DNA from: Candidatus Heimdallarchaeota archaeon
GTDB lineage: Archaea; Asgardarchaeota; Heimdallarchaeia; JABLTI01
DNA: 64,000 nucleotides
Assembly: GCA_019056785.1 (NCBI GenBank)
Contig: DXJV01000006.1
Span: 1-64,000, forward strand
Direction: 5' to 3'
Shown here one piece after another: positions 3,039 through 61,718 of the stretch; position 1 is the stretch's first letter; every line of letters starts with the position of its first letter. The translations under genes and the position numbers were made by a program. The notes beneath the pieces were generated by a model. It did not search any database and was not told where the DNA came from. It worked only from the letters and a program-made list of their open reading frames with translations.

Positions 3039-3395
3039 TTACCATCGTCTTAGGATGTATTCTCTGAAAATTGCTTTATCGAAATCAGGAATTTTGCCGA
3101 ATTTAGTTTCAGCAATCTTTGCCTGTTTGTCCAATTTTTCTTTAATAATGAAATAGTTGCAGTCTTTTTTACTGATATCAATCTGAACCTCATCATCAGT
3201 TATTTTTCGTAATTTAAACAGCTGCATTGGGAGCGCAAGAAGAATATTTTTCTGAAGAACTCTGCGATAATCAATGACAACAAAGACTTTTAACGCATTG
3301 TTTTGGTCTAGTGAAAAATCAATTCGTTTTACTTTTCCAAGAACCTTCCCTTCTTTTGAGAGTGCAATTTTACCAATAATATCAGGAAATTCCAT
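3039..3395 (-). CDS. PRC-barrel-like small protein (paralog of 3-356)
   Basis: 118 aa; 'IIGKIALSKEGKVLGKVKRIDF' aligns with the 3-356 ORF. Confidence 0.55.
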   Translation of the reverse strand: MEFPDIIGKIALSKEGKVLGKVKRIDFSLDQNNALKVFVVIDYRRVLQKNILLALPMQLFKLRKITDDEVQIDISKKDCNYFIIKEKLDKQAKIAETKFGKIPDFDKAIFREYILRRW

Positions 3396-3657
3396 GTGTT
3401 ATCCCATCTTCTAGATAAAAGTTTCTTCTTTTTGTATTTTAACCTTTTTAATCTAGGAGTAGTAATCATTCAGCTTAGTTTATGAAGGTTAATAATACTT
3501 GAATCATGTTTGAAGGAAAACACATGAGTTGTTTTTTCTCTTCTGCCTTTTTTTTATCCCTCTGTTTTTCTTTGTTAACTCAAGTCGATTAACCCTATTG
3601 ATAAGAAAAATTTCTATTAAGATAACTTTGGTAAGGAAGTGGGCTTAATAGGGCAGA

Positions 3658-3984
3658 CTAGTGCTGTCTGAATTCAAGAGCAGCTTCCTCAACAGCTCCT
3701 TTAAGGTCAGTAAGTATTTGTTCGAACAGAGGTTTGAAATCGTCGTGAAAACATTCTGCCCGACCGTGAGGATTAAAAAAGGCAACCAACTCACCTGTTG
3801 TTACATCTAAAATCCGAAATGTTGGCCTTGGGATTGGTCCTGGTTTGGGGCCTGACCCTACTTTTGGAGGGATAATCTCGAGTTGATATTTTTCTTTACA
3901 ATATTTTTCGACTAACTTAGGGATCAATTTTTGCCGGGTATCAAATTCTACTTGTAAATAGGGAGGTTCTACCATTATTTTCAC
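3658..3984 (-). CDS. hypothetical protein
   Basis: 108 aa ORF, coding-like composition. Confidence 0.5.
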   Translation of the reverse strand: MKIMVEPPYLQVEFDTRQKLIPKLVEKYCKEKYQLEIIPPKVGSGPKPGPIPRPTFRILDVTTGELVAFFNPHGRAECFHDDFKPLFEQILTDLKGAVEEAALEFRQH

Positions 3985-4089
3985 TCTTGTTTCTGAGCTT
4001 TTATCCCTCTTTTCGGTATAAAAACCAGAATATAATTCTTAAATAGACAGTTTTTTTATTGTGAAAGTTTACTTATTAATTCGTTTCTT

Positions 4090-6333
4090 TTGGCTGTGAA
4101 TGATATGTCTCCTCAGAAAGTTCCCTCTGTAATAGCAAGAATTCAAGGGCTTATTATTGTGCTAATTCTTTTACAATCTTTACTCCCACTTTTGGGTTCT
4201 AGTCAGTATACCAGCCAATTGAAGGCTTTTACCCATGCGTCTTTCAAATCTCAGAGTGTCTCCCCTACTGCTCCGTCTTGGCTTAAAAACGCGCGTATTG
4301 TTGGTTATGAATTCTGGGAAGATGAAGATGACGCAAGTGTTCGGGCGAAAGTTGCAGAGTTATGTGAACAAAACGTGAATGTTTTAGAACTTGATATTGG
4401 TCTGATTAATAACTATGAAACGTTTTTTGAACCTGAAATATTTCTTAATGCCACAAAACAAATCGTTTCTATTGCCCATGAGAAAGGTTTAGCTGTTGTG
4501 GAATACATTGCTGGTTTTGAATTAATTACTCCTAATGTTGCCTGGAAAGAGCATTCGACGTTCAAGGATCATCCTGATTGGATTCAAAGAGATTTGCATG
4601 GAAACTACGCCGTTTATGGCCCAGAACTTGGTTTTTGGGTCGAAGAGGGTGCTGAGTCAGCCTGGGTTACCCCTCTTGCTCCGGAGTGGCGCAGCCAGTA
4701 TATGTCTATTATTGCTGACCTTGCTGCAACCGGCGTGGATGGTATTTATATTGATGTTCCGTTCTGGAGGACCTGGTACAGTGAGGAAAATGACTGGACC
4801 TGGGGAAGCTTTGACAATTATACCGTTAGCGAATTTATTTCAAGGTATGGTCACCCCCCACCAGCTAATGAATCAGACTTTGATTTGAACAATCCTTTGT
4901 TTATTGAATGGCTGCAATTCCGCACGACAATTATCAATGAGTTTTTTGCTGAGGTCTCAACAATTGCAAAAGGCATTAATCCTAACATTCAAATCATTGC
5001 TGAGATTTGGTTGGCACAAGCACTTCACGCCTTGCTCTCAGGGGCAGACCCTTACTATCTTTATGATTATGTTGATGCAATTACTTACGAATTTGGCACC
5101 GAGGGTGATTCCAAGGCCTTTACTGAAGAGCTCTGGTTATACGTGGTCATTAAGAATCTTCTTTACCGTGCTCTTGACCATGACCATCCTAGCTGGATAC
5201 TAGATTATGCTGTCAAACCGGAAGATTCCACACTCCTTGCAGCGGCAGACGTTCTCTTTGAAGGCAATTTTTGGGAGACAAAAGGACCGGAAATGGCTGG
5301 CACTGTAGGGTTCGAATATCGTAAAGCCCTCTTTAATTGGATTGCCACCTATGATGACTTTCTCTATGGTAATTGGGAAGTCGTTAATCCTGTAGCTGTC
5401 TATTACAGCCCCCAGACACGAGACTTTGTCTATTCCCTCGAGGCAATTCACCATCCTATTCTTGATTATGGAGAAGGTGTACTTGACGAGCAATTCTGGG
5501 GGGCGTATAATGAATTTATCGGCGGTCATCATTCTTATGATCTCTATGGCTTAACGGCAATGTTGCTCCAATCGCATATTCCCACAAAAATCATCACTTC
5601 GAGAGATCTCGCACGCCTCCAGGAGTTAGGAGTGCAAATGTTGATACTCCCTGATGTTGCAGCGATGAACGAAACAGAAATGACTTTTGTTGAAGCCTTT
5701 GCGAAAGGAAAGCCGGTGATCGCGACCGGCAATACTTCACTTTATTACCAAAACGGGACCAGAAGAGCTGAGTTTGGCTTAGCAAGTCTTTTTGGAACAA
5801 GCATCCATGAAACAGCACCGGTGGTTGTTCATGGTAATGTAACCTTTATCCGCGGTCGTCCAGGTGAAGCGTTTTTAGTTGATTTATTGCTCGGCCTAAC
5901 AGAGGCTGCGAAGGAAAAGCGAACAAGCTTCTTTAACGATATTTTCACTCCACTCGGTTTTCCGTTTCAAATGCTTACAAATGCCCCCACAACGGTATTC
6001 ATGAATCCTTACACAAATGGAACCACCACTATCGTTCGGGCTGTGAATTTTGATAGTACGCGTAAGAATCATCAAAAACCAAATGAGCAAACTTTTAATC
6101 TCACCGTTTTTGATTCCTCAGGAACGAAACTTGAGACAAATAGTTCAATTAGCATTAATTATGGTGGTATTGTTATCTTTAATGGCGAGTTTCTGCAGCT
6201 TTTAACTGAATTTTATATTCCTCGAAGTACACCAAGTTGGCTGCTGGTTGGTTTTACGATTACTTGTGCAAGCATCGTTGTTATTCTAGTACTTGTTTTT
6301 ATCGTGCACCGGAAAAGATTGAAGAAGAATTAA
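4090..6333 (+). CDS. secreted, membrane-anchored glycoside-hydrolase-like protein (TIM-barrel type)
   Basis: 747 aa; N-terminal signal/TM, 'GVDGIYIDVPFWRTWYSE' barrel-type motif, C-terminal TM followed by KRLKKN. Confidence 0.6.
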   Translation: MAVNDMSPQKVPSVIARIQGLIIVLILLQSLLPLLGSSQYTSQLKAFTHASFKSQSVSPTAPSWLKNARIVGYEFWEDEDDASVRAKVAELCEQNVNVLELDIGLINNYETFFEPEIFLNATKQIVSIAHEKGLAVVEYIAGFELITPNVAWKEHSTFKDHPDWIQRDLHGNYAVYGPELGFWVEEGAESAWVTPLAPEWRSQYMSIIADLAATGVDGIYIDVPFWRTWYSEENDWTWGSFDNYTVSEFISRYGHPPPANESDFDLNNPLFIEWLQFRTTIINEFFAEVSTIAKGINPNIQIIAEIWLAQALHALLSGADPYYLYDYVDAITYEFGTEGDSKAFTEELWLYVVIKNLLYRALDHDHPSWILDYAVKPEDSTLLAAADVLFEGNFWETKGPEMAGTVGFEYRKALFNWIATYDDFLYGNWEVVNPVAVYYSPQTRDFVYSLEAIHHPILDYGEGVLDEQFWGAYNEFIGGHHSYDLYGLTAMLLQSHIPTKIITSRDLARLQELGVQMLILPDVAAMNETEMTFVEAFAKGKPVIATGNTSLYYQNGTRRAEFGLASLFGTSIHETAPVVVHGNVTFIRGRPGEAFLVDLLLGLTEAAKEKRTSFFNDIFTPLGFPFQMLTNAPTTVFMNPYTNGTTTIVRAVNFDSTRKNHQKPNEQTFNLTVFDSSGTKLETNSSISINYGGIVIFNGEFLQLLTEFYIPRSTPSWLLVGFTITCASIVVILVLVFIVHRKRLKKN

Positions 6334-13924: not shown

Positions 13925-14063
13925 GGGCCGGTAGATCAGACTGGAAGATCGCCTGCTTGGCAATTAGGCGGCGAGCTGCCGTTTCTAACCTTAATGCAGG
14001 AGGCCCCGAGTTCAATAGGCTGTTGCTTCGGCACTTCCTGGACACATCTCGGCCGGTCCACCA
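13925..14063 (+). tRNA. tRNA-Ala(GGC) with two introns (13963-13994 and 14016-14045)
   Basis: exons GGGCCGGTAGATCAGACTGGAAGATCGCCTGCTTGGCA / TGCAGGAGGCCCCGAGTTCAA / ATCTCGGCCGGTCCACCA form a complete cloverleaf with G3:U70 and encoded CCA. Confidence 0.88.
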
Positions 14064-16677: not shown

Positions 16678-16725
16678 TAAAAAAAGCTTTCTTATATTAT
16701 TACTAAAAGTGTGGGTGTTTGCGAT

Positions 16726-17385
16726 TCAAGGCTTGAGTGTTGTTCCTTTGCCTATGATTATCCGAATTGCTTCAAATGCTTCTGCATATTGATGGTCTAA
16801 TTGTACTCCTCGTACTCTTGCCAATGCCCGTAAATAATCTTCACTCGAGTAAAATTTGTCAGCTTGCGTTTTGTATTCTTTAATTGCGGCTATTTTTTTA
16901 GCGATGTGTCGTTCCTCGAGTTTAATGAAACACGTTGAAGAGAATTGGATGTTGTTTCTTGGGAATTCATACCCTAAAAGTGAGCTTGTTATCCGGAAAG
17001 CACGAATGCCTTCGTTATGCATTATTTGATGGTCCTGGTGCATGTCATCACTATTCGGTAAGAAAACGATGTCGGGCGCCAGATCTTTTCGGTAGTTCAC
17101 CAAATCCTCGAGTATCTCTTGACGATTAGCAGGGAATGATCGGACTTCATAATCATGGATGAACAAATTTTTTGGAGGGATCCCTAAGACTTTCGTTGCT
17201 TTTTTCACTTCTGTTTTCAAAGCATCTTTCGGAAACCCGGGTTTTACAGATTTCCGTGCAGTGGAAAAGGCAATATAGAACACTTCGTGTTTTTCTTCTA
17301 CAAAACGGGCTATTGTTCCCCCCGCGCCAAATTCTCCGTCGTCTGTGTGTGGGCTTAAAACAACGATTCTCATTTTCTTGCGCAC
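16726..17385 (-). CDS. PIG-L/LmbE family deacetylase
   Basis: 'VVLSPHTDDGEFGAGGTIA' and 'PNSDDMHQDHQIMHNE'. Confidence 0.9.
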   Translation of the reverse strand: MRKKMRIVVLSPHTDDGEFGAGGTIARFVEEKHEVFYIAFSTARKSVKPGFPKDALKTEVKKATKVLGIPPKNLFIHDYEVRSFPANRQEILEDLVNYRKDLAPDIVFLPNSDDMHQDHQIMHNEGIRAFRITSSLLGYEFPRNNIQFSSTCFIKLEERHIAKKIAAIKEYKTQADKFYSSEDYLRALARVRGVQLDHQYAEAFEAIRIIIGKGTTLKP

Positions 17386-50432: not shown

Positions 50433-52899
50433 AAAGATTTTTCGAGAAATCTGGTTCAACAAATTCCGATCCATTTCGATTATCAGTGTTGTTGCTATAA
50501 CCGTTGCTATGTTTTCAGGAATGCGTGCAGGTTATCCGATGTTGCTTGCCTCCTATAACCTCAATCGTGAGATAAGTAATGTAGCAGATGGTCGTTTTAC
50601 TTTTCTACAGCCGGTCAATCAAGACAATCTTACAGTAATTAAAAACAATGATGTGTTGCTTTCAAAGGCAAATATTGATCGAATTGACGGTAGAATTCTC
50701 TTTCAAACATCGCTACTATATAAGGGAGAAAAATTTCAAGCAATGGTTATTGGTGTGGATTATCCAAATGAAGTGAATGAATTAATAATTGAAGCACAAG
50801 CAGAAGACATTACAAATACTTCACAACTCTTAGCAGCAAATAATAGTTGTATAATAGAAACTCACTTTGCCGGGCAAAATATCCATCTCATTGGTCAAGA
50901 CGTTGCATTAAATGACACATTATCAATAGATTTTATAGGGCAAAGTGTTAATTTCTCTGTTAAAGCAATAGCTCAAGATACTGATTATTTATATGTCGTT
51001 GATGAGACCACTCAGATGCCAATGTTAGGTGAATTGGCAATAGTTTGGATTAACCTTGCTAGAGTGCAGGAACTAAGATATAGCAACAAACCCTTTATAA
51101 ACCAAATTCTCTTCACAGTCAAGGATCGCTTCAATAAAAGTCAGATTTTTACTGCAGCAGATGAGCTTGCAGAATATTTCACAAGTAATAATATTGATGC
51201 TAATTCCTTGCAATTTGAAACCTTTGATGAAACGCTTGAATACAAGATGTTCGAAGCAGATGCAGGCTCTCTTGATAGCATGGGAACAATCTTTGGGATT
51301 ATTGGGCTGATAATTTGTTCTATCATCATCTTTAATACCTTAAGTAAACTGGTAAACTCTCAAAGAAAGAATATTGGCTTATTCCTAGCTATGGGTGCAT
51401 GTAAACATGAAATTCTTTTCCATTATGTTGGTGTAACGCTCATTCTCGCAACAATTGGAGTGGTCATTGGAGTGCCGTTAGGCTACGAACTCTCAATTGG
51501 TATGGTAAAAATGGTCACAAAATTCTATGCAATACATTACCTTTCCTATATCTTACCTGCGAGTGAGTTCATTATTGGTGGAGCTATAACAATTGGCATC
51601 TGTTTTTTCTTCTCTCTTTTCAGTGCATGGCCAATAACCACCGTTACTCCTCGAGAAGCTATGACGCCGATTTTTACTCGAATTAAAGCAACCGGAAAAT
51701 CAATGGCAGAAAAAATCTTCGGGTGGTTGCCGTTATTCAAACCAATACACATGGTAATTCCACTGCGAGAAGTGTTTATGAAGAAAAAGAAAACGCTCGT
51801 AACTATTTTAGCCCTTACAACATCAATGGTTTTTCTGGTAGATTCCCTTGCAATGGAATATAACATGTATAAGGTTATGACAGACAATTTCAACAAATAC
51901 AACACTTCTGACATACAAATTACCCTCCAGACCCCCTTGCCGGTTGAAGAGATTAATCACTTCTTAAAAAAGCAAAGTAATACTGTTTTACAAGACATCA
52001 CTCATTCAGAAATCTTCATTGATCTATATATAAAAATAACTCACAAAGGAGAGTTCGCCACGTGGGCGAAGTTTGTCTGCTATCAAGAAAATTCAACAAT
52101 AAGAAATTATAATGTGATAAAAGGCATGAAAAGCAAAGAAGAACTTGGCCCTACAAAGGTTCTGTTGGGAAAATCCATAGCAGGAAAATATGACATCAAA
52201 CTTTATGATGACATTAGTATCGGAATACTGGGAAATTATGAGGTAGAAGTAGTAGGAATCGTTGGAGAGCTCATCGATTTTTCAGTCATGTGGACATATG
52301 AAGCATACCAAGAAAGCACCATAAGCCCCTATTTCGGGTTGATGAAAGGATGGGCAAACGGTATCGCAATAACAGTGAAAGAGGGAACAAATCTCAAGGC
52401 ACTACGAACCGCTTTTGAAGAGCAATTCGAAATCAACCGCTGGACAGAAACAGAAACAGCAAAGAATTCCGCCAGAGCGCTAATGGAATCAATGATGGGG
52501 ATAATGTTAGTCTTTCTATTTGTAGGGTTGGCAATAGGGGTGGTATTTAGCTTCCAAGCAATGTACATAGCTTTTGTAGACAGAGAAATGGACTTTCTAG
52601 CACTAAGAGCCATGGGAGCAAAAATGAAGCATGTCAGGAGGATAATCTTCTGGGAAAATGCAATACTAAGCCTAATAGGAACAATACTAACAATACCATT
52701 TGGCTACCTATTCTATTTCTGGAGTATGAACTATATCCTAAAAGATAAGTTCTATATACCAATGAGAGTGCCGTGGTTCACTTGGCCAATCGTACTGGTG
52801 CTAGCACTGTTTGCAATATGGTTGGCAACAATGAGATTAGTAAGAAAAATAAAGACAATAAAATTACATGATGAACTGAGAGTAACAGGAGCAACATAG
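50425..52899 (+). CDS. FtsX-like permease, no adjacent ATPase
   Basis: 824 aa, two FtsX TM blocks; overlaps AKR fragment end (ATGACTAA). Confidence 0.88.
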   Translation: MTKKIFREIWFNKFRSISIISVVAITVAMFSGMRAGYPMLLASYNLNREISNVADGRFTFLQPVNQDNLTVIKNNDVLLSKANIDRIDGRILFQTSLLYKGEKFQAMVIGVDYPNEVNELIIEAQAEDITNTSQLLAANNSCIIETHFAGQNIHLIGQDVALNDTLSIDFIGQSVNFSVKAIAQDTDYLYVVDETTQMPMLGELAIVWINLARVQELRYSNKPFINQILFTVKDRFNKSQIFTAADELAEYFTSNNIDANSLQFETFDETLEYKMFEADAGSLDSMGTIFGIIGLIICSIIIFNTLSKLVNSQRKNIGLFLAMGACKHEILFHYVGVTLILATIGVVIGVPLGYELSIGMVKMVTKFYAIHYLSYILPASEFIIGGAITIGICFFFSLFSAWPITTVTPREAMTPIFTRIKATGKSMAEKIFGWLPLFKPIHMVIPLREVFMKKKKTLVTILALTTSMVFLVDSLAMEYNMYKVMTDNFNKYNTSDIQITLQTPLPVEEINHFLKKQSNTVLQDITHSEIFIDLYIKITHKGEFATWAKFVCYQENSTIRNYNVIKGMKSKEELGPTKVLLGKSIAGKYDIKLYDDISIGILGNYEVEVVGIVGELIDFSVMWTYEAYQESTISPYFGLMKGWANGIAITVKEGTNLKALRTAFEEQFEINRWTETETAKNSARALMESMMGIMLVFLFVGLAIGVVFSFQAMYIAFVDREMDFLALRAMGAKMKHVRRIIFWENAILSLIGTILTIPFGYLFYFWSMNYILKDKFYIPMRVPWFTWPIVLVLALFAIWLATMRLVRKIKTIKLHDELRVTGAT

Positions 52900-52987
52900 A
52901 AAAAACAAAAAAAAAGAAATATTCCCATCAAAAAGAAATATTAATAAAGAAAAGAAGGAAAAACAAAAAATAACAAAGAAAAAAAGT

Positions 52988-53125
52988 GGGCGGTTGATCT
53001 AGCCCGGTATGATGCCTCCTTGACGACGACAAAAAAAGGATTTTTGTCGACAAAATGGAGGAAATCCCCGGTTCAATGGGTTCAAGTTGCGGCTTGTTCT
53101 CGGGCAAATCCGGGATCGCCCACCA
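52988..53125 (+). tRNA. tRNA-Val(GAC) with two introns (53026-53055 and 53077-53107)
   Basis: exons GGGCGGTTGATCTAGCCCGGTATGATGCCTCCTTGACG / TGGAGGAAATCCCCGGTTCAA / ATCCGGGATCGCCCACCA form a cloverleaf with encoded CCA. Confidence 0.85.
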
Positions 53126-53568
53126 CCTTTTTATTGCCTTATTGCTCCTTTTTTTCTATGCCTGTTCTGTAATAGCAGCTCGTCAAGCTGGAGAGATTTC
53201 CGTCTCTATTCTATTACAAATTTACTTCAATGTAGCTGAAATTCACTTAGGGATTAATTTATAAACTCGCTACCATAGCTAAGATTCTAATAACTATTAC
53301 AAGTTTTTTCGCAGTGACTTTGGAACCCCGGGTCTGATTTTACCACGAATTCCAAGTTCCAAAAAACTCCGAGTAGAATTTTCCAATAGACTAAAATGAC
53401 TTTATACAAGTTCCAATCGCCATTATAGTCATCACTTAACAAAGGATTAGCAAAAAGAGAAATTGATCTATTAATTACGCTGCTTTAGTATGTGATGAAA
53501 TTTCTCTTTCAACAGAAAGTTATCGATTTATTTCAACTCATTTTTGAATGTACATTCTCATCAAGAGA

Positions 53569-54315
53569 TCATTTTTCCCCTTGGTCAATGTGACATATCA
53601 TTCGTAATTGACATTGAGCACAACTTTCCTTTTTTAGGAAGAAATTTTCGGCTTCAATTTTTTGCAGGATTTGTTGAATTTTGTTCTCTACCACCTTTTT
53701 CAAACCGGAAGGATACGGCTGTACTTCTAGCTTGCCTATTGAATAATAGTAACATCCTACTTCTTTTAAGGTTAAATCTTCCCAATTGTTTTCGATCATA
53801 AACTCCTCTACTAAAAGTGCATAGAATTGTAATGCCTCAAAGTCCATCGAGTTTTGAGATTTTTTGTAATCTATTAATCGTAGATCTCCATTTTCATTTA
53901 TGATTTCAAGACAATCAACAATCCCCCGTTGTTTTTTTGTCATTAATGCTAGTTCGGTATATAATGGCTTCCAGTAATATGTTCCTCTGCAAGTAATATA
54001 TCTTTGTTGTTGATAGTTCCAAAAATTTAGCAATTCCTTCTTCGCTTTAATCTCAGGAGGGATAATCCCTTTAGAAATGCAATAGGCATAGAGTTGATGA
54101 AACGTAGCAAAAAATTGATGCAACTTAATACCTTCTAATTCTGTTTCATTATATCCCCGTAAGATATATTCACTAATTGTTCGTTTTGTAGTTTGAAAGG
54201 AATTTTTCATGGGAAGAGGATTGAGGATTCGATAAAGTCGAAATTTTTGAGGGCATTCTTGAAAGTAAAAATATTCTTGTAAACTTAAATTCAATTCATA
54301 ATCGTAAACAACCAA
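53569..54315 (-). CDS. Cas4-like Fe-S PD-(D/E)XK nuclease
   Basis: 'QECPQKFRLYR', 'GIVDCLEI..LRLIDYKKS', 'ALQFYAL', 'CAQCQLRMIC' (1+3 Cys arrangement). Confidence 0.75.
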   Translation of the reverse strand: MVVYDYELNLSLQEYFYFQECPQKFRLYRILNPLPMKNSFQTTKRTISEYILRGYNETELEGIKLHQFFATFHQLYAYCISKGIIPPEIKAKKELLNFWNYQQQRYITCRGTYYWKPLYTELALMTKKQRGIVDCLEIINENGDLRLIDYKKSQNSMDFEALQFYALLVEEFMIENNWEDLTLKEVGCYYYSIGKLEVQPYPSGLKKVVENKIQQILQKIEAENFFLKKESCAQCQLRMICHIDQGEK

Positions 54316-54317
54316 AC

Positions 54318-54836
54318 CTATTCCTCCTCTTTCACAATTCCTTTTAACAAAAAGGGATTTTTTAATAACAGTTTAAAAATATTAATGATTTGCTCGCCTG
54401 TACCTAAATAAGGAGAGTTGTATTCCATGACTAAATCATTGATAAAATCAGCTTCTTCTTTAATAGAGAGAGGGCGTATTTTTTTAATCTTAAGCTCCTC
54501 TTTAATTTTTTCTAGTTTTTTTCTCTTTTGAAAATATTGTAGGATTAAGTTGATTAGTTCTTTAACATTTTCACGTGTGAAATTTTCATTGGCATAAAAA
54601 TGAGTGTAGTATTCAAACAAACATGAAAAACTTAGAGGGGGATTTGGTTTATTAACATTTAATATGCAAGTTTTATAACGTGACTCAGTTCTGCTAAAAG
54701 TTATTAGTTGACGCTGCTCCAAAATAGAGAGATAACCTATTACTTGATCCCATTTCCACGGCAAAGATTTCTCCAGATCTCTAATTTTCAATGCTTTTGT
54801 TTTCCCAGAAAAAACAAAATCCTTTATGAGAGTCAT
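54318..54836 (-). CDS. hypothetical protein, possible N-terminal winged helix
   Basis: 172 aa; 'LEKSLPWKWDQVIGYLSILEQRQLITF'; 2 bp from Cas4-like gene. Confidence 0.45.
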   Translation of the reverse strand: MTLIKDFVFSGKTKALKIRDLEKSLPWKWDQVIGYLSILEQRQLITFSRTESRYKTCILNVNKPNPPLSFSCLFEYYTHFYANENFTRENVKELINLILQYFQKRKKLEKIKEELKIKKIRPLSIKEEADFINDLVMEYNSPYLGTGEQIINIFKLLLKNPFLLKGIVKEEE

Positions 54837-54993
54837 AACAAAAAAATGAGTTTTAACAAGACTATAATTACAAAGGGGGGCAATAGCTTCTTTAATTTCT
54901 ATACATCTTTCGTTAGAAAGTTCTCTAATGTGCGACCCGTTTTTTATACACTTTAAAAGTTTCTCTCGAAATTTTCTTAGGAATATTTCACTC

Positions 54994-56988
54994 TTAATTT
55001 GGCAACACCTCTTGAATCATCAATGGATGAAAAGGAGTCTCCTTCAAGAAATTCTTTAGATGCTTCTTTAGAGCATAAATTACTTTTCTTGGTAAATAGT
55101 CAACATTTTTTATTTCTTGTAATAATTTCCAAGCGGTATAATATTGTCCTGTTTCTTTGTTAAAAGTCATAATATTTGCAGAACTAATTGGTACTTCAAA
55201 ATATAACTTCTGACGCAATAGAATGTTCTTCTCATACGCCTTTAGTAGAGTGACTCTTTTTTCATCAAAAGTAATGACTTTCATTTGTAAAACCTCTTTG
55301 GCGATTTGCCTAATAACTGCGTCTCCCTCTGTTTCAGGCATAAGGCAATAGAGTAAATCATATCTTTTTCCTCTTCGCTCGAAAAAGTGGCTTGGTAATA
55401 ACCTTTCTTCTCTAATAGCAGCATTGATACAAAGCATGGTTACTAGCTTTCCGGATTCAAAATCATCATAAAAAAGTCCTTTCGAATAGTTTCTATGACA
55501 CCAACCTCGGAAACCATCAAAAGCAAACCCAAGTTTATTGTATACAGCTTCTTTTATAGTGTTGGCAATTCTACGATTAATACTATTAATGGCACAATCA
55601 TATTTCGAACGGGCATAGTCCAGCCCGAATGGAAGAAAGTGCTCCCCTCGAACCATCCTAGCCTTTTCACGTGATGAAGAGAAAAAACCAAAGTGTTTGG
55701 CTTCTTCCTTAAAGGGATTGAACATTATACTTCCTCCACCTCCTTCTAATTGTTGCCAATATTTGAAATCCAATTCACGAGGTATTCTAACCATTTCTTT
55801 ATACCTTTGTAATCGTTTCTTTGCAGTTAAATAGAGTTCTTTGCTTCTTCCAGTTGTTATTGCGTTATATTCCAAGATAGCTTCTCGTGAGCGAAAGTTT
55901 CCCTCTAAACAAATAGAGTTGCAGATACCCGTTGCAATAAAGATTTCATTCCCACCAATTTCTAGTTCAGAAGGCTCAGAGCTTTGGGGTGGTATGCGTG
56001 GCTCATAAATAGTTATTTTTTCAAATAAGCCCTTTCTCTCAAAGTTATTATTTGTGTATTCACTATGAAGTTTTTTTTTCAAATCAAAGTATGTTGGCCA
56101 TCGATTGCAGCTAATAAAGTCAATCTTTTTTAAAGGGAAATAGCACACTTTTTCTAAGTTGTCTTCTATTATTGGTGTTCCGGCAAGAAAAATAACCTCA
56201 TTTTTTAAATCTATATGGTAGTAAGCATCTCTGTCAATTGATATTCCAAAGTTTTTTGCTGAACTTCTCCATTCCAAAAGGCTCCCTGTTAGTTTCCTAA
56301 AGTCCTTAGCTAAAATATCAAATCTAGCGTCCCAATAGATTATCTCATAGCGTTTTAAGTGTTTGTTAAATCTCATCCTCATTGGCGACCCACAATGGGG
56401 GCAATAAAAAGTTGCTGCGCCAATCTTAAAATGGCTCAAAGCTTCACTTTGTTCAAAGATAACTTTTTTGCATCGTTCCACTGGGCAATGAAACAAGAAA
56501 TCTTGTGAAGTATTTTTTTTAATAAAACTATTTACTTCCATGGAATTTACATGTCCATTAACTCTCAAATCAAAATATTCACACGCCGGTGTGTTGGAAG
56601 ATAAAACATCTTTTTGTGCTCTAGCTTTTAATTTAGCATCAAAAAGCAAACTTTTATTATAAGCAAGATCTAACAACACACAACGACGAACCAGCGTAAA
56701 GCGTTGACATAAGCCACATCTTTTACTGCTTACTTTGTTAGCGCCTTCTTCTTTAAATGATGTCTTCTCTCGTTTATAGTAAACTAAGACTTTTCTTTGA
56801 ACATTCCTTTTTTCTAACTGACAATAAATCTTGTTTTTCAAGACTAATTTTGTTAAAATTTTATTAATATACGAAGGAGATTTTCCTACTTTTAACGCTA
56901 TTTCTTTACATGATAACCCTTCGAATCCTTTCTTTCTAAATGGAACTAATTTTTCAATTGCTTCCATAAGTAAAGACTGTAACCCCAT
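54994..56988 (-). CDS. wHTH/zinc-finger protein with C-terminal Cas1-like integrase domain
   Basis: 'CKEIALKVGKSPSYINKILTKLVLKNKI' HTH; CGLC, CPVERC, CPHCG; 'LEGGGGSIMF..DCAINSINRRIANTIKEAVYNKLGFAFDGFRGWCHRNYSKGLFYDDFES' matches Cas1 E...N..N...H...DxxE layout. Confidence 0.65.
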   Translation of the reverse strand: MGLQSLLMEAIEKLVPFRKKGFEGLSCKEIALKVGKSPSYINKILTKLVLKNKIYCQLEKRNVQRKVLVYYKREKTSFKEEGANKVSSKRCGLCQRFTLVRRCVLLDLAYNKSLLFDAKLKARAQKDVLSSNTPACEYFDLRVNGHVNSMEVNSFIKKNTSQDFLFHCPVERCKKVIFEQSEALSHFKIGAATFYCPHCGSPMRMRFNKHLKRYEIIYWDARFDILAKDFRKLTGSLLEWRSSAKNFGISIDRDAYYHIDLKNEVIFLAGTPIIEDNLEKVCYFPLKKIDFISCNRWPTYFDLKKKLHSEYTNNNFERKGLFEKITIYEPRIPPQSSEPSELEIGGNEIFIATGICNSICLEGNFRSREAILEYNAITTGRSKELYLTAKKRLQRYKEMVRIPRELDFKYWQQLEGGGGSIMFNPFKEEAKHFGFFSSSREKARMVRGEHFLPFGLDYARSKYDCAINSINRRIANTIKEAVYNKLGFAFDGFRGWCHRNYSKGLFYDDFESGKLVTMLCINAAIREERLLPSHFFERRGKRYDLLYCLMPETEGDAVIRQIAKEVLQMKVITFDEKRVTLLKAYEKNILLRQKLYFEVPISSANIMTFNKETGQYYTAWKLLQEIKNVDYLPRKVIYALKKHLKNFLKETPFHPLMIQEVLPN

Positions 56989-56991
56989 TTC

Positions 56992-57747
56992 TTAAAACTC
57001 CTCAATATTTAACCCTCTATTTACCATTGCATTTAATAGCCAAGGAATTTGCAAACGTTCAGATTCTAACTTCTTATGAATAATTTCTTTTTGTAAGGAC
57101 ACTGTGAGCCCATTAACATGATTTTTTTCTTCGCGCCTGAATCCAAAAATTATTTCTTCAGCAAATTGATACAAAGGATTCTGTTCAAGTTCTATTGGGT
57201 CATCAAAATCAACGTCCTTTACTTTTTTTACCCATTGCTCTTGTTCTGAAATCCATTGGAGATACCCCCTTATCTCTTGAATCTCTTCATCAGTGTTTTT
57301 TATCAATCTGTTAATTTGCTCAATAGCTGCAGAAAAGTTCACATTTGCAGGGAAAAATCCTCTTTTAAAAGGGGGATGTTCATCGATATCATCATTTGTA
57401 TTCTGTTCAGTAAACCCAAATAACGTAACCAAAAGAGTTTGAACAAATTCATTTGTAAAGTTTATAGTTATTCTCCGATTTTGGCCATCTCTCCCATATT
57501 CAATAATTTTCATATTGTCAAGTTTTTGTAAAGTTACCCCAATAGTTTTTGGGGTTCGCCCTGTAATTTTAACAAGAGCTTGTACAAAACCAGTTACGGA
57601 CCATTTATTTTCAATGATGCAAAGAAACAATAATGTTAGAAGAATTTCTTCCATCGAAGAAGTGATCTTAAAGTGCTTTAGGCCTTCTAAAATTGTGGAT
57701 GTTTGATCTAAATTATCAATAGTTCTAGAGACCATCACTTTTCCCAA
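56992..57747 (-). CDS. winged-helix DNA-binding protein
   Basis: 251 aa; 'LVKITGRTPKTIGVTLQKLDNMKIIEYGRDGQNRRITINF'. Confidence 0.6.
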   Translation of the reverse strand: MGKVMVSRTIDNLDQTSTILEGLKHFKITSSMEEILLTLLFLCIIENKWSVTGFVQALVKITGRTPKTIGVTLQKLDNMKIIEYGRDGQNRRITINFTNEFVQTLLVTLFGFTEQNTNDDIDEHPPFKRGFFPANVNFSAAIEQINRLIKNTDEEIQEIRGYLQWISEQEQWVKKVKDVDFDDPIELEQNPLYQFAEEIIFGFRREEKNHVNGLTVSLQKEIIHKKLESERLQIPWLLNAMVNRGLNIEEF

Positions 57748-57836
57748 AGAAAAGAAAGTAAATTTTCTTTATAAAAAGCTAAATATGTGACATTGTATGA
57801 AAGAAATAGGTTATTATGGTAAAAAAAAAAGAAAAA

Positions 57837-57886
57837 ACTGGTAAATACTGGTAAATTTTTCAAAAAAAAGTTCAAATACTGGTAAA
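57837..57886. repeat. three direct repeats ACTGGTAAA upstream of wHTH-Cas1-like operon
   Basis: ACTGGTAAA at 57837, 57847 and 57878 (spacing 10 and 31). Confidence 0.6.
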
Positions 57887-58149
57887 AAAATCGGATTATC
57901 TTGACTAATAGAAGAAAAAACGATAAAAGGAGTAAAAAATTCCCAATAAGACAAAAATAGGGGGTATTTAAAATCATAAAACTAGCAAAATTGCCTTCTA
58001 AATCATTAAAACGAGAAAAAATACCCCTCTTGTAAGGTCATGAATTTCTTCATTCTCTTTAAATGTAAATTTCTTCTCCTAAGAGAGTAAGTTTAATAAA
58101 AATTGACTAACATTCCTAAGACTAAAGCAAAACTTACATTTTAAGGGAA

Positions 58150-58458
58150 ATGGAAGAAATGAATAACTCGGATAGTGTCTCCTATATCTTTTCTTGGAAT
58201 CGATTAATTCGTTTATGTAAGATGGATAATATGGATGAAAAGGAGAAACAGGAAATTATTGATGCTATTATGTTTTTAAAAAATGAATTTGATAATAATT
58301 TCTTATTAGATACCCAAGATTCGCATTTCTTACCTCAACAATTGGTGAAAAACAGCACATTAAACAGACATCGATTTCTTTGGTTAAAATGGTTTGCCAG
58401 TTCTTATCAAAGGCTCAAAGAACATAAAAGCGCTAACCTTCTTTATCAAAATGATTAA
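58150..58458 (+). CDS. small hypothetical protein coupled to 58451-59335
   Basis: 102 aa; 8-nt overlap ATGATTAA with next ORF. Confidence 0.5.
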   Translation: MEEMNNSDSVSYIFSWNRLIRLCKMDNMDEKEKQEIIDAIMFLKNEFDNNFLLDTQDSHFLPQQLVKNSTLNRHRFLWLKWFASSYQRLKEHKSANLLYQND

Positions 58459-59335
58459 AAATAGAAATGCTTCAAGCGGTGTACTAAACGAATTAGTTTA
58501 TATTGATAAATTCCTTCAAAGTAATTTTACTATTGAACTATACCCTAGGAGACAGAAAAAAAAGCCTGATGTAGCAGTCACAATGTACTCTAGAGCTTTT
58601 GATGTTGAAATAACTCATCAAGAACCAAAAAAGAGCATTACTGATTTTCTTAATGCTTACTTCTTTTTGAATGAACCTTTCTTTAAAAATGACTTGAGAA
58701 GATCGCAATTTGATTCTGCTATTGTTTTATTAACCCCATACCTTGCAAAAGAGACCATAAAAAGCATAAACGTAATATTGGATCAAACTATAAGAACAGC
58801 CATTAAAGAAGAAACCATCATTAGTGGGAAGATAAATCATCTTCTAAAATATGTCGTTGGACATGTAAAGAAAAGGGAAGAAATAAAAAAATGGTGTGAT
58901 GAAAACAATACACAAATCAATACGATACAATTGGAGAGCAATCTTCTAGAAAGCGCAATATCCTCTTTTATGGGAAAAATCAACTCTAAAATGAAAGAAA
59001 ATCTGAGGAACTCAGAGAATAGTCTACTAATGATTACAGAGCCAAATCTCTTTTTCTTGAATGATTTAAATGGCAATGAGGATTTTGATGAAATTGTCGT
59101 AAAGAGTATGCAGATTATCCTTGATCATCCAAAATTGTTGGCAGTAATTTTAGGGTCAGGTTTATACTCTAGGCCAGAGAGATTGGCTCATAAAGAAAAG
59201 AATGAATATACTCTTATTTCTAATGAAAATGATGTGAATAATTCTTATTATCTGATTATTTGGAATAACAAGGCCACAAATATTTTAACCAAAAAAGAAA
59301 AAGCAGAACTTTGCTCCCTCTTAGCTAGAGGATAA
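58451..59335 (+). CDS. PD-(D/E)XK-like nuclease candidate
   Basis: 'LNELVYIDKFLQSNF..PDVAVTMYSRAFDVEIT' E...D...E-x-T arrangement. Confidence 0.4.
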   Translation: MIKNRNASSGVLNELVYIDKFLQSNFTIELYPRRQKKKPDVAVTMYSRAFDVEITHQEPKKSITDFLNAYFFLNEPFFKNDLRRSQFDSAIVLLTPYLAKETIKSINVILDQTIRTAIKEETIISGKINHLLKYVVGHVKKREEIKKWCDENNTQINTIQLESNLLESAISSFMGKINSKMKENLRNSENSLLMITEPNLFFLNDLNGNEDFDEIVVKSMQIILDHPKLLAVILGSGLYSRPERLAHKEKNEYTLISNENDVNNSYYLIIWNNKATNILTKKEKAELCSLLARG

Positions 59336-59343
59336 AAGAACCT

Positions 59344-60951
59344 TCAAAAGCCGGCTTTAGATCCTTCGGAGAGAACACGCAAATTACAGAAAGTAGTAAG
59401 AAAGTATCTAATAGTACTATTTTTCAAGTATTTACCGGTCAACTGAACTGCAAAGTGTTTTTGAATTTTAGCTAAGAATGAGGGGTCAGTAGACTTGATT
59501 AATATAGCCTTCTGATAAAAAACCATTTGTTTAATGATTCGTCTTAGCGTTGCAGATGGTTGTAAATCTAATCTTACGGGTATTGATTTATATTTGCGAA
59601 AACGAATGGTGCTTACTTGTTTGGTAAGGAAAGAGAGGAGCGATTCGTTTTTTATCTTGAGCAGTTTAGATAAAATTCCAATAGCAATAGCACTTTTCCC
59701 ATGTTCAAGTTGCTGAAGAAAGCTGGGTGTAATGCCCAATTTCTTTGCAAAACTAACAAGGGTGGCATTTCCTCGACTGAGCCGAAGGTAGCTACCTAAA
59801 CCGGTTATTTGCATCTCTTTTAAAAGGTGAAAATTGAAATAGCCATGAATAATGGCTTCTTTTTTAAAATCCACAAAAACTCTTGGTTGTGTTGGATTCT
59901 TCGTTTTCCCTTCTCTCAACTTTAGGAAGTCTTTGACTTTTTCAGGATGATAACAAAGCATCTTGTCTTTGTAATTTTGATGGTACTTTCTTGGAATATA
60001 AACTTGATACGTATTATCCCCCCTTTTCTTAAAAGACGATTGAATGTTTTGGTCTAAAAGGAAATGAACAAAGTCTTGAGCAAATTTCTCGCTAGCACTT
60101 GCTAAGATAACTCTATTTTGAGTATAACTCCCGTCTGTATCCATAACACCGGACCAATAAGCCGAACGCAAAGAAGCGTTACCCCGATAAAGGAGAGGTT
60201 CACGCAAGGTGGCATATTTCTTTCCACTAATAGGTTGCCCTGTAAGAAAGGAGAAGAGTCGTACTACCCAAAGATTAGTGATAATAAGTGTTGGGCAGTT
60301 TTCCGTTTGTTGTTGGATTCTTCCATGCAGTTTGAATAGTCGAGTAAAACGTTCTTGGAGCTGCTGAATATTCGTCAATGAAAAATCGACAATGTTCAAG
60401 ATATATTTCGACAAACTTCCATCCCCATTGATAACCCCACAAAGGTAAGCAAGCTCAGGTGTGAGGGTCGATGGCAGAGTAAATAGCTCACCGCGGGCAG
60501 ATTCGAAAAGCCTGTCTCGGAGGAAGGGGGAGGAAGGAGATGGTAAGCACCGGAGAAATGGCAATGGTACTGCACCGCGCTCTTTGAGATAATGGCGTAG
60601 CAACGACCGCCATTCCAGAATTCTGCGATCAATTGAAAAATAGAAATAGTTTCGCAATCGTTCAGCAACGAGGAGCTCATATCGTTCGAACACTTCCCGC
60701 TCCTCAGTGGTAAGCCGGAGAAACGGAAAGCGCGCCAGTACCCTGTCAGAAGCCTTTCGCCGAAGAAAATCGTTCCGTCGGATCATAATTGGGTAGAGAT
60801 TAAGAATTTCACCATCGGCAATGAAAACTTCTTTCTTACGTCCCGATTCTAATAATTCATTTGCATTTAGCCATTGGTTTGATTCTTTTGGATGAACATC
60901 AAAGAGAAGGGGGTCCTTCTGCCAAGATAGAACCGGCAAAATACTTAACAC
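59344..60951 (-). CDS. free-standing LAGLIDADG endonuclease with HTH domain
   Basis: 'LCGVINGDGSL' and 'YWSGVMDTDGSY' motifs; 'VSFAKKLGITPSFLQQLEHGKSAIAIGILSKLL' HTH. Confidence 0.85.
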   Translation of the reverse strand: MLSILPVLSWQKDPLLFDVHPKESNQWLNANELLESGRKKEVFIADGEILNLYPIMIRRNDFLRRKASDRVLARFPFLRLTTEEREVFERYELLVAERLRNYFYFSIDRRILEWRSLLRHYLKERGAVPLPFLRCLPSPSSPFLRDRLFESARGELFTLPSTLTPELAYLCGVINGDGSLSKYILNIVDFSLTNIQQLQERFTRLFKLHGRIQQQTENCPTLIITNLWVVRLFSFLTGQPISGKKYATLREPLLYRGNASLRSAYWSGVMDTDGSYTQNRVILASASEKFAQDFVHFLLDQNIQSSFKKRGDNTYQVYIPRKYHQNYKDKMLCYHPEKVKDFLKLREGKTKNPTQPRVFVDFKKEAIIHGYFNFHLLKEMQITGLGSYLRLSRGNATLVSFAKKLGITPSFLQQLEHGKSAIAIGILSKLLKIKNESLLSFLTKQVSTIRFRKYKSIPVRLDLQPSATLRRIIKQMVFYQKAILIKSTDPSFLAKIQKHFAVQLTGKYLKNSTIRYFLTTFCNLRVLSEGSKAGF

Positions 60952-61044: not shown

Positions 61045-61718
61045 TCATTTAATGAGCCAGAGGAGGTTATAAACTTCTAAAGAGCCTGTTTCAAATAGTG
61101 GGATTCCTGCTTCCCCGAGGATCATCCCAATGAGTTGAGCTGCATAGCCCTCACTTCCGGTTATAAGCACTTTCAAGGTATTTGTTTTGCAATCAAAGAA
61201 GTGTTTGCAAAAGAAGTCTTTTACGAAGAGCATTTCTCTTGATTGTGGCGAATTGTCAATTAAATAGAGCGCTGCTGCGAGAAAAATCTGTTCTGTATCT
61301 TCCACGACTTTATTCAAAGCGTCCATTATCTGTTCTGTGAGTTCCTTCTCTCGTGTGTATTTTGCCAGGACCCAGAGTACTCTTGATTGAACAGCCAAAG
61401 AAGGGTCATTTCTTAACGGTTTTACTAACGGGACAAGTTTTTCTTTTAAAAAAGGTTCAAGAAACTGCACTGCTTTTTCTCGGAGAAGTGGTTCTTCATG
61501 AGTGAGAAACCTTTTCAAGATCAAACTCTTTTTTTGGGATGGATTTGTTCATTTTCAATTACAAATTCGAGAATGAGATTGAGTTGCTCTGGAGAGCAAG
61601 TTTACATGAACTCTTGCATCAGTTTAGAAACAGCTGCCTTCTCTTCTTCCAACTGCAAAACTTTTCTTGCCTGTGTTGGAGCAAAGGTATTCTTAATATG
61701 CTTGTGGAGAGATGACAT
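61045..61718 (-). pseudogene. HEAT-like helical-repeat protein, disrupted
   Basis: upstream in-frame TAA (about 61602) and frame change at T7 tract (61528-61534) separate MSSLHKHIKNTF.. and ..PEQLNLILEFVIENEQIHPKK from the 159-aa ORF. Confidence 0.5.

Follow-up and report, generated by a model that had tools for sequence, protein, structure and literature searches.

What is a protein that combines DNA-binding modules with a Cas1-like region doing in the genome of a Heimdallarchaeon? The question is raised by a 664-residue protein encoded on contig DXJV01000006.1 of the Candidatus Heimdallarchaeota assembly GCA_019056785.1, of which the first 64,000 nucleotides were analysed (the window). Its open-reading frame (ORF) lies exactly at positions 54994-56988, as the original prediction from the DNA letters had placed it, and was found to be a single frame with zero internal stops on the minus strand, which that prediction had not specified. 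As set out below, Heimdallarchaeota probably harbour a casposon-like integrative mobile element of which this protein is the integrase, one of the Cas1 family, an assignment made with moderate confidence.

Architecture of the protein and its Cas1 fold

The protein comprises a winged helix, two Cys4 clusters, and a Cas1 fold. The N-terminal module (residues 1-72, positions 56773-56988, minus strand), which includes GLSCKEIALKVGKSPSYINKILTKL (residues 24-48), is a predicted winged helix according to the secondary structure of an AlphaFold2 (AF2) model and to profile matches with winged-helix structures. Residues ~88-205 (positions 56374-56727) hold two Cys4, putatively zinc-binding, clusters, one formed by C91, C94, C103, and C136, beginning in CGLCQRFTLVRRC (residues 91-103), and the other by C168, C173, C196, and C199 in the motifs CPVERCKK (residues 168-175) and CPHCGSP (residues 196-202). 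Among 21 homologues, C136, C168, C173, C196, and C199 are at least 90% conserved.

The Cas1 domain extends over residues ~205-610 (positions 55159-56376, minus strand), where the AF2 model, built with 21 family sequences at a mean predicted local distance difference test (pLDDT) score of 83.6, has a beta-rich part followed by a helical Cas1 domain. In a Foldseek search of the PDB, the top match to this model was the Methanosarcina mazei casposase 6opm (E = 4.6e-8), with Archaeoglobus Cas1 and the Cas6-RT-Cas1 and Cas4-Cas1-Cas2 complexes ranking after it (Cas1 4n06, E = 2.5e-7), and 11 casposase or Cas1 matches were obtained at E ≤ 6.2e-5. The window protein alone is too divergent to be recognized by Pfam Cas_Cas1, for which the cut-off is 22.3 bits; the relative at locus L092 scores 25.8 bits, and the type C copies of genomes G003 and G004 (types are described below) score 28.4 and 25.6 bits with frame neighbours. 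With these structural matches and with family members above the Pfam cut-off, the Cas1-like region proposed for the protein proved real, and the modelled fold places the protein in the Cas1 superfamily.

Aligned by hhalign with canonical Cas1 of the same genus (E = 1.5e-4), the family profile pairs LEG with LEG, CH with LH, and the D..E motif with its counterpart. The residues at the canonical catalytic positions are E415, H498, D508, and E511, which we regard as putatively catalytic; the position of E415 is acidic in every aligned homologue, and E, H, and D are invariant even in very divergent versions of the protein. The two acidic residues follow the histidine at +10 and +13 (H498 to D508 and E511), as in E. 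coli Cas1 (H208, D218, and D221).

Distribution and the conserved cassette

About 24 homologues with the same architecture were found in eight of the nine genomes of the genus (Candidatus Heimdallarchaeota), at up to six loci per genome, one of the eight (G001) having merely a C-terminal piece at a contig end. The possibility that the modules are fused solely in this assembly is thereby removed: the fusion is not an assembly artefact, since the same architecture recurs in homologues, and it is confirmed not to be due to chance. The original prediction of HTH (helix-turn-helix), Cys clusters, and Cas1 in one protein was therefore borne out as a conserved fusion. Such a fusion has precedents, HTH and zinc domains being joined to Cas1 in family 3 casposases as well (PMC4046053).

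At ~20 loci the gene is part of a conserved cassette in the order LAGLIDADG-HTH gene (F1), winged-HTH gene (F7 or F4), Cas1-like gene (F0), small winged-HTH gene (F2), and Cas4-like gene (F3). Type A comprises the window protein and the proteins of ten or so loci that are 35-37% identical to it; those of type B have ~700 residues, those of type C ~620, and those of type D 1100-1360 or are split. Types B and C have the Cas4-like gene in inverted orientation, and type D has a helicase/phosphoesterase gene (F6) in its stead. The genome of the window itself has a second homologue (L089, G000:C16), a type D protein of 1311 residues with two LAGLIDADG genes and a helicase nearby.

Outside the genus, a 993-996-residue version occurs in three genomes of the same class (L090, L091, and L093), and a genome of the same phylum (G094) encodes a 1323-residue protein in which a DEAD-box helicase is fused ahead of the HTH, Cys, and Cas1 parts (L092:4970-8941). 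These distant fusions excepted, the protein is absent from other genomes of the class, and the queries run against plasmids, phages, and IMG/VR recovered no relatives. A search of genome contigs with the single window protein gave no matches, and one with alignment A4 gave eight Heimdallarchaeota loci. Canonical Cas1 genes are present separately in three of the nine genomes of the genus.

Relatives at tRNA genes

The copies are dispersed. Two loci of one genome (L040 and L041) are 87% identical over 4.9 kb and have unrelated flanks, and in type A homology ends at the stop codon of the Cas4-like gene even between 95% identical copies. Several cassettes have decayed through stops and split frames, as is typical of mobile DNA.

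In type C copies, whose ends can be seen, the cassette is located at transfer RNA (tRNA) genes. In L084, tRNA-Val(GAC) has its 3′ end 2 bp from the stop codon of the small winged-HTH gene, and at a distance of 10.5 kb there is a 3′ fragment of tRNA-Val; in L083, tRNA-Ala(GGC) and a 51-bp imperfect repeat of its 3′ region are 10.2 kb apart; in L048, tRNA-Leu and its 3′ fragment are 8.0 kb apart; and in L047, tRNA-Val abuts the small winged-HTH gene. In all four, the 3′ end of the tRNA is the site of integration. Beside the small winged-HTH gene of L085 there is, judged by eye, a degenerate 3′ end resembling that of tRNA-Val, and the decayed copy L132 has an intact tRNA-Val followed by a Cas4-like gene, LAGLIDADG remnants, and a 3′ fragment of tRNA-Val. 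No PolB and no tyrosine or serine recombinase turned up in the Pfam scan of the gene families of L083, L084, L048, and the window cassette, leaving the three tRNA-bounded elements with no other recognizable integrase.

No 14-15 bp target site duplication was found, the repeats at these ends being imperfect, tRNA-derived, and ~30-50 nt long, and no convincing short target duplication was seen at type A or B ends or at TnpB ends. At the far end of L031, a tRNA-Asp fragment was searched for and none was found. Several tandem tRNA-Val 3′ fragments occur in L133 (at 3532, 4103, and 7123) and in L137, as if the same tRNA had been entered repeatedly.

Filled and empty tRNA-Arg(TCT) sites

A comparison between species gives both states of one site. 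In genomes G005 and G006, tRNA-Arg(TCT) is intact with one 30-nt intron, and these are empty sites. In G004, a type C element divides the orthologous tRNA-Arg(TCT) into two parts, which stand 13.6 kb apart with flanks on both sides that match G005, and in G003 the gene is likewise split, with its 5′ part at the same place as in G004. The split parts retain nucleotides 1-25 and ~44 to the end, the anticodon arm having been lost. Both splitting elements carry, near the LAGLIDADG gene, a complete tRNA-Arg(TCT) interrupted by an anticodon intron and, in the T loop, by one of 31 nt (L043 ~3054-3190; L046 ~16700-16870). Read from these sequences, the host tRNA-Arg(TCT) looks to have been destroyed and putatively replaced by the copy borne by the element. 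A pattern search had seemed to find no tRNA-Arg(TCT) in G003 and G004, which the different D arm of the element-borne copy explains, and the idea of a trans-spliced tRNA was dropped. Such filled and empty sites would be direct material for the study of how Cas1-like enzymes choose tRNA targets.

The window copy and T-loop introns

In the window, a tRNA-Val(GAC) gene (positions 52988-53125, plus strand), missed by ARAGORN and by an Rfam gathering search, has an anticodon-loop intron and a 31-nt T-loop intron (~53076-53106). Its 3′ end faces the cassette at 444 bp from the stop codon of the Cas4-like gene. L084, L047, and L132 use this same tRNA, which in the window stands on the side of the cassette where L084 and L047 have it. 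This position is suggestive of insertion of the window copy at tRNA-Val(GAC), and no more than suggestive because no displaced tRNA-Val fragment was found on the contig. Among the retrieved loci of relatives, none matched the window flanks in synteny as an empty site for the window copy.

The same 30-31 nt T-loop intron was found in ~14 tRNA genes across the genus, from pattern matches judged by eye; the reversed pattern, as a control, gave 0-2 matches per genome and strand. The intron splits TTCA|AATC, and TCAAATC is a motif that the tRNA target of the Aciduliprofundum casposase must contain (PMC6614799). According to an earlier proposal, introns shield tRNA genes from integration (PMC3293823), and we infer a connection between the T-loop introns and the Cas1-like elements. 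One tentative and rather doubtful scheme is a Cas1-based homing element, in which the LAGLIDADG and Cas1-like proteins would open a tRNA gene, the host copy would be destroyed, the element would supply a tRNA with the 31-nt T-loop intron, and the intron within TCAAATC would block re-entry; the tRNA-Val and tRNA-Ala genes of the window would then be resistant copies. If T-loop introns do block integration, the old proposal that archaeal tRNA introns protect against mobile DNA becomes directly testable. The tRNA-Ala(GGC) gene in question (window positions 13925-14063) has a 30-31 nt T-loop intron and an anticodon intron and was also missed by ARAGORN and the Rfam gathering search.

Partner proteins of the cassette

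All five cassette genes of the window are on the minus strand. The Cas4-like protein encoded at positions 53569-54315 (248 residues) matches PF12705 (E = 1.2e-10) and Cas4 models (2e-5), with invariant H66, D134, and K151 and conserved cysteines at 21, 232, 235, and 241; by its sequence it belongs to the Cas4 family, with the PD-(D/E)XK core and the four cysteines. The small winged-HTH protein (172 residues, positions 54318-54836) adjoins the Cas1-like gene in cassettes of types A-C of the genus and was modelled with moderate confidence (pLDDT 70) as a winged helix with additional helices. A Cas2-like fold for this protein was considered and rejected, the model being a winged helix and not the ferredoxin-like fold of Cas2. 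Directly upstream of the Cas1-like gene is the other winged-HTH gene (251 residues, positions 56992-57747).

The LAGLIDADG-HTH protein (535 residues, positions 59344-60951) scores 41.7 bits against Pfam LAGLIDADG_3 (cut-off 22.5), a family matched in all 16 of 16 homologues, in which the acidic residues D177 and D273 are invariant. Its C-terminal third is hypervariable: pairs that are ~72-77% identical N-terminally fall to 20-37% there, and between L043 and L046, a single locus seen in two species whose core DNA there is 96% identical, identity by thirds is 72, 64, and 34%. The LAGLIDADG and Cas4-like neighbours, unmentioned in the original prediction, matter more than the fused modules.

Proposed roles and alternative explanations

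In the integrase reading, the Cas4-like nuclease would trim or otherwise prepare the ends of the element DNA, and the Cas1 domain would join that DNA to the target tRNA gene. The winged helix and Cys4 clusters of the Cas1-like protein, with the two small winged-HTH proteins, may recognize the element ends and/or the tRNA target via its T arm, and choice or cutting of the tRNA target is probably aided by the LAGLIDADG-HTH protein, the C-terminal third of which changes fast. Cas2 was not found in the cassette, where the neighbouring proteins are winged helices, in agreement with the earlier supposition that a Cas2 partner is lacking. Given the winged-helix model of the small neighbour, the DNA recognition that Cas2 or IHF performs elsewhere may plausibly fall here to the added modules together with the winged-HTH proteins. 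The part of that supposition concerning terminal repeats gained no support, since a search of the window and of the definable element ends found none; the ends of relatives show tRNA gene sequence.

Several observations weigh against a Cas1-driven insertion. The hhalign match to canonical Cas1 reached merely 51% probability, and two smaller subset alignments gave no significant match. Terminal inverted repeats were not found at window positions 52890-58500, where the candidate pairs were merely chance-level and AT-rich, or at definable element ends. The ~30-50 nt tRNA-derived repeats include the T arm and resemble the attachment sites of tyrosine integrases. A tRNA is missing from the ends of most type A and all type B copies, and a second copy of the window tRNA-Val 3′ end was not found on the contig. 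Simple insertion also does not account for the loss of nucleotides 26-43 from the split tRNA-Arg.

In a rival explanation, the elements move by another route, either through a tyrosine integrase acting in trans or through a LAGLIDADG homing cut followed by homologous repair with the carried tRNA sequence, the Cas1-like protein then being an accessory or repair enzyme. The long imperfect repeats and the tandem tRNA fragments of L133 and L137 would fit such a route, as would a RadA-like gene in element L084 and the presence in every element type of a LAGLIDADG protein with invariant acidic residues. We nevertheless consider it unlikely, because no integrase was found in the three tRNA-bounded elements, tRNA 3′ ends are known insertion sites of casposases (PMC4046053), and the Cas1 catalytic residues are kept across very divergent copies, which an accessory role would not need.

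The neighbours of some cassettes would fit a further reading, an array-less CRISPR-like defence (CRISPR, clustered regularly interspaced short palindromic repeats), in which Cas1 and Cas4 would capture DNA beside RNA-guided effectors, namely TnpB or a Cas7-like RAMP pair, or beside a NERD nuclease. In 9-10 cassettes, a TnpB gene is separated from the start of the LAGLIDADG gene by no more than a few hundred bp, mostly in divergent orientation (e.g., L033, L034, L040, and L085-L088), far above its genomic density of 54 copies in ~30 Mb of genus sequence. A gene pair including one Csm3/Cas7-like RAMP is found near five cassettes of the genus (L030, L031, L036, L038, and L041), with no CRISPR arrays, and near the Cas1-like relatives L090-L093 outside it. 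These neighbours could point to a link with RNA-guided systems. As a defence function, this is nonetheless quite improbable: neither Cas2 nor Cas10, Cas6, or Cas8 was recognized, no repeat-spacer array is near any cassette, neighbours differ between the otherwise 96% identical copies L043 and L046, RAMP pairs also occur away from cassettes, and the window contains none of the effectors named. Acquisition of the cargo beside the Cas4-like gene in the manner of spacers was dropped as an idea, since just several-kb insertions or replacements were seen, with no sign of ordered acquisition. Least probable of all is a host cluster for DNA repair or recombination that happens to sit in variable regions; near-confinement to one genus and the lack of plasmid or phage relatives would suit it, whereas the dispersed, multi-copy, and partly decayed state of the cassettes, their absence from other genomes of the class bar the distant fusions, and the comparison of filled and empty sites already disfavour it.

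Comparison with known elements

CRISPR adaptation is thought to have descended from Cas1-bearing transposons, and known casposons carry PolB. Among the closest known systems are casposons (Cas1-solo group 2; families 1-4), which have a stand-alone Cas1 directed at tRNA genes, partners that include HTH proteins, Cas4-like nucleases, and a further endonuclease, no other recombinase, and, in family 3, fused HTH and zinc domains (PMC4046053). The Heimdall elements share with them the stand-alone Cas1 with catalytic residues kept, the tRNA targets, the HTH, Cas4-like, and second endonuclease partners, and the family 3 type of fusion. They differ in that no PolB and no terminal inverted repeats were found, in having LAGLIDADG instead of the casposon HNH and a Cas4-like protein in type A-C cassettes, and in that their repeats are long and derived from tRNA, where casposons produce target duplications of 14-15 bp (PMC6614799). 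The target tRNA is moreover disrupted and replaced in two Heimdall species, whereas casposons leave the target gene intact. Since no PolB, inverted repeats, or short duplications were found, the Heimdall element is not classed as a casposon, although it is a variant of the casposon kind.

With the CRISPR-Cas adaptation module (Cas1-Cas2-Cas4), the cassette shares the joint encoding of Cas1 and Cas4, but it has neither Cas2 nor an array, and its small partner is a winged helix. The Heimdallarchaeum elements HeimM2 and HeimV2 and the aloposons also insert at tRNA genes, HeimM2 being next to tRNA-Arg(TCT) and having a homing endonuclease that is proposed to direct its integration (PMC8813620); the text of that report contains no occurrence of Cas1 or Cas4, and the Heimdall cassettes are without giant proteins. 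SSV/pNOB8-type elements and the Caldiarchaeum tRNA-disruption model (PMC3293823) offer the same arrangement of an element flanked by an intact tRNA and, at its opposite end, a tRNA 3′ fragment, and a proposed element-borne intron tRNA, but a tyrosine integrase is encoded there and none was found in the Heimdall elements. Judged from its place within or against tRNA genes wherever its ends are visible, the cassette looks to be mobile DNA of a kind not described before and akin to the ancestors of CRISPR. If so, a PolB-less family with Cas1, Cas4, and LAGLIDADG in Heimdall archaea would widen the known range of Cas1-bearing elements and would be an example of Cas1 paired with Cas4 in the absence of Cas2.

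Other neighbouring genes

A HEAT-repeat-like protein (F19, positions 61045-61524, minus strand) shares 47-50% identity with its positional counterpart beside the LAGLIDADG gene in L083 and L084, and the window element therefore probably extends at least to 61524. In the out-of-genus locus L092, the helicase-Cas1 fusion adjoins a RAMP gene on the same strand. L046 has a ~0.8-kb insertion (~3337-4170) that is absent from the orthologous L043 and is bounded by a 20-bp direct repeat (L043 9506-9525). Variable cargo in the window (positions 58150-59335, plus strand) consists of two ORFs, 58150-58458 and 58394-59335, which overlap in different frames and have no family match; in the second, the stretch KKPDVAVTMYSRAFDVEIT resembles, by eye, a PD-(D/E)XK nuclease core.
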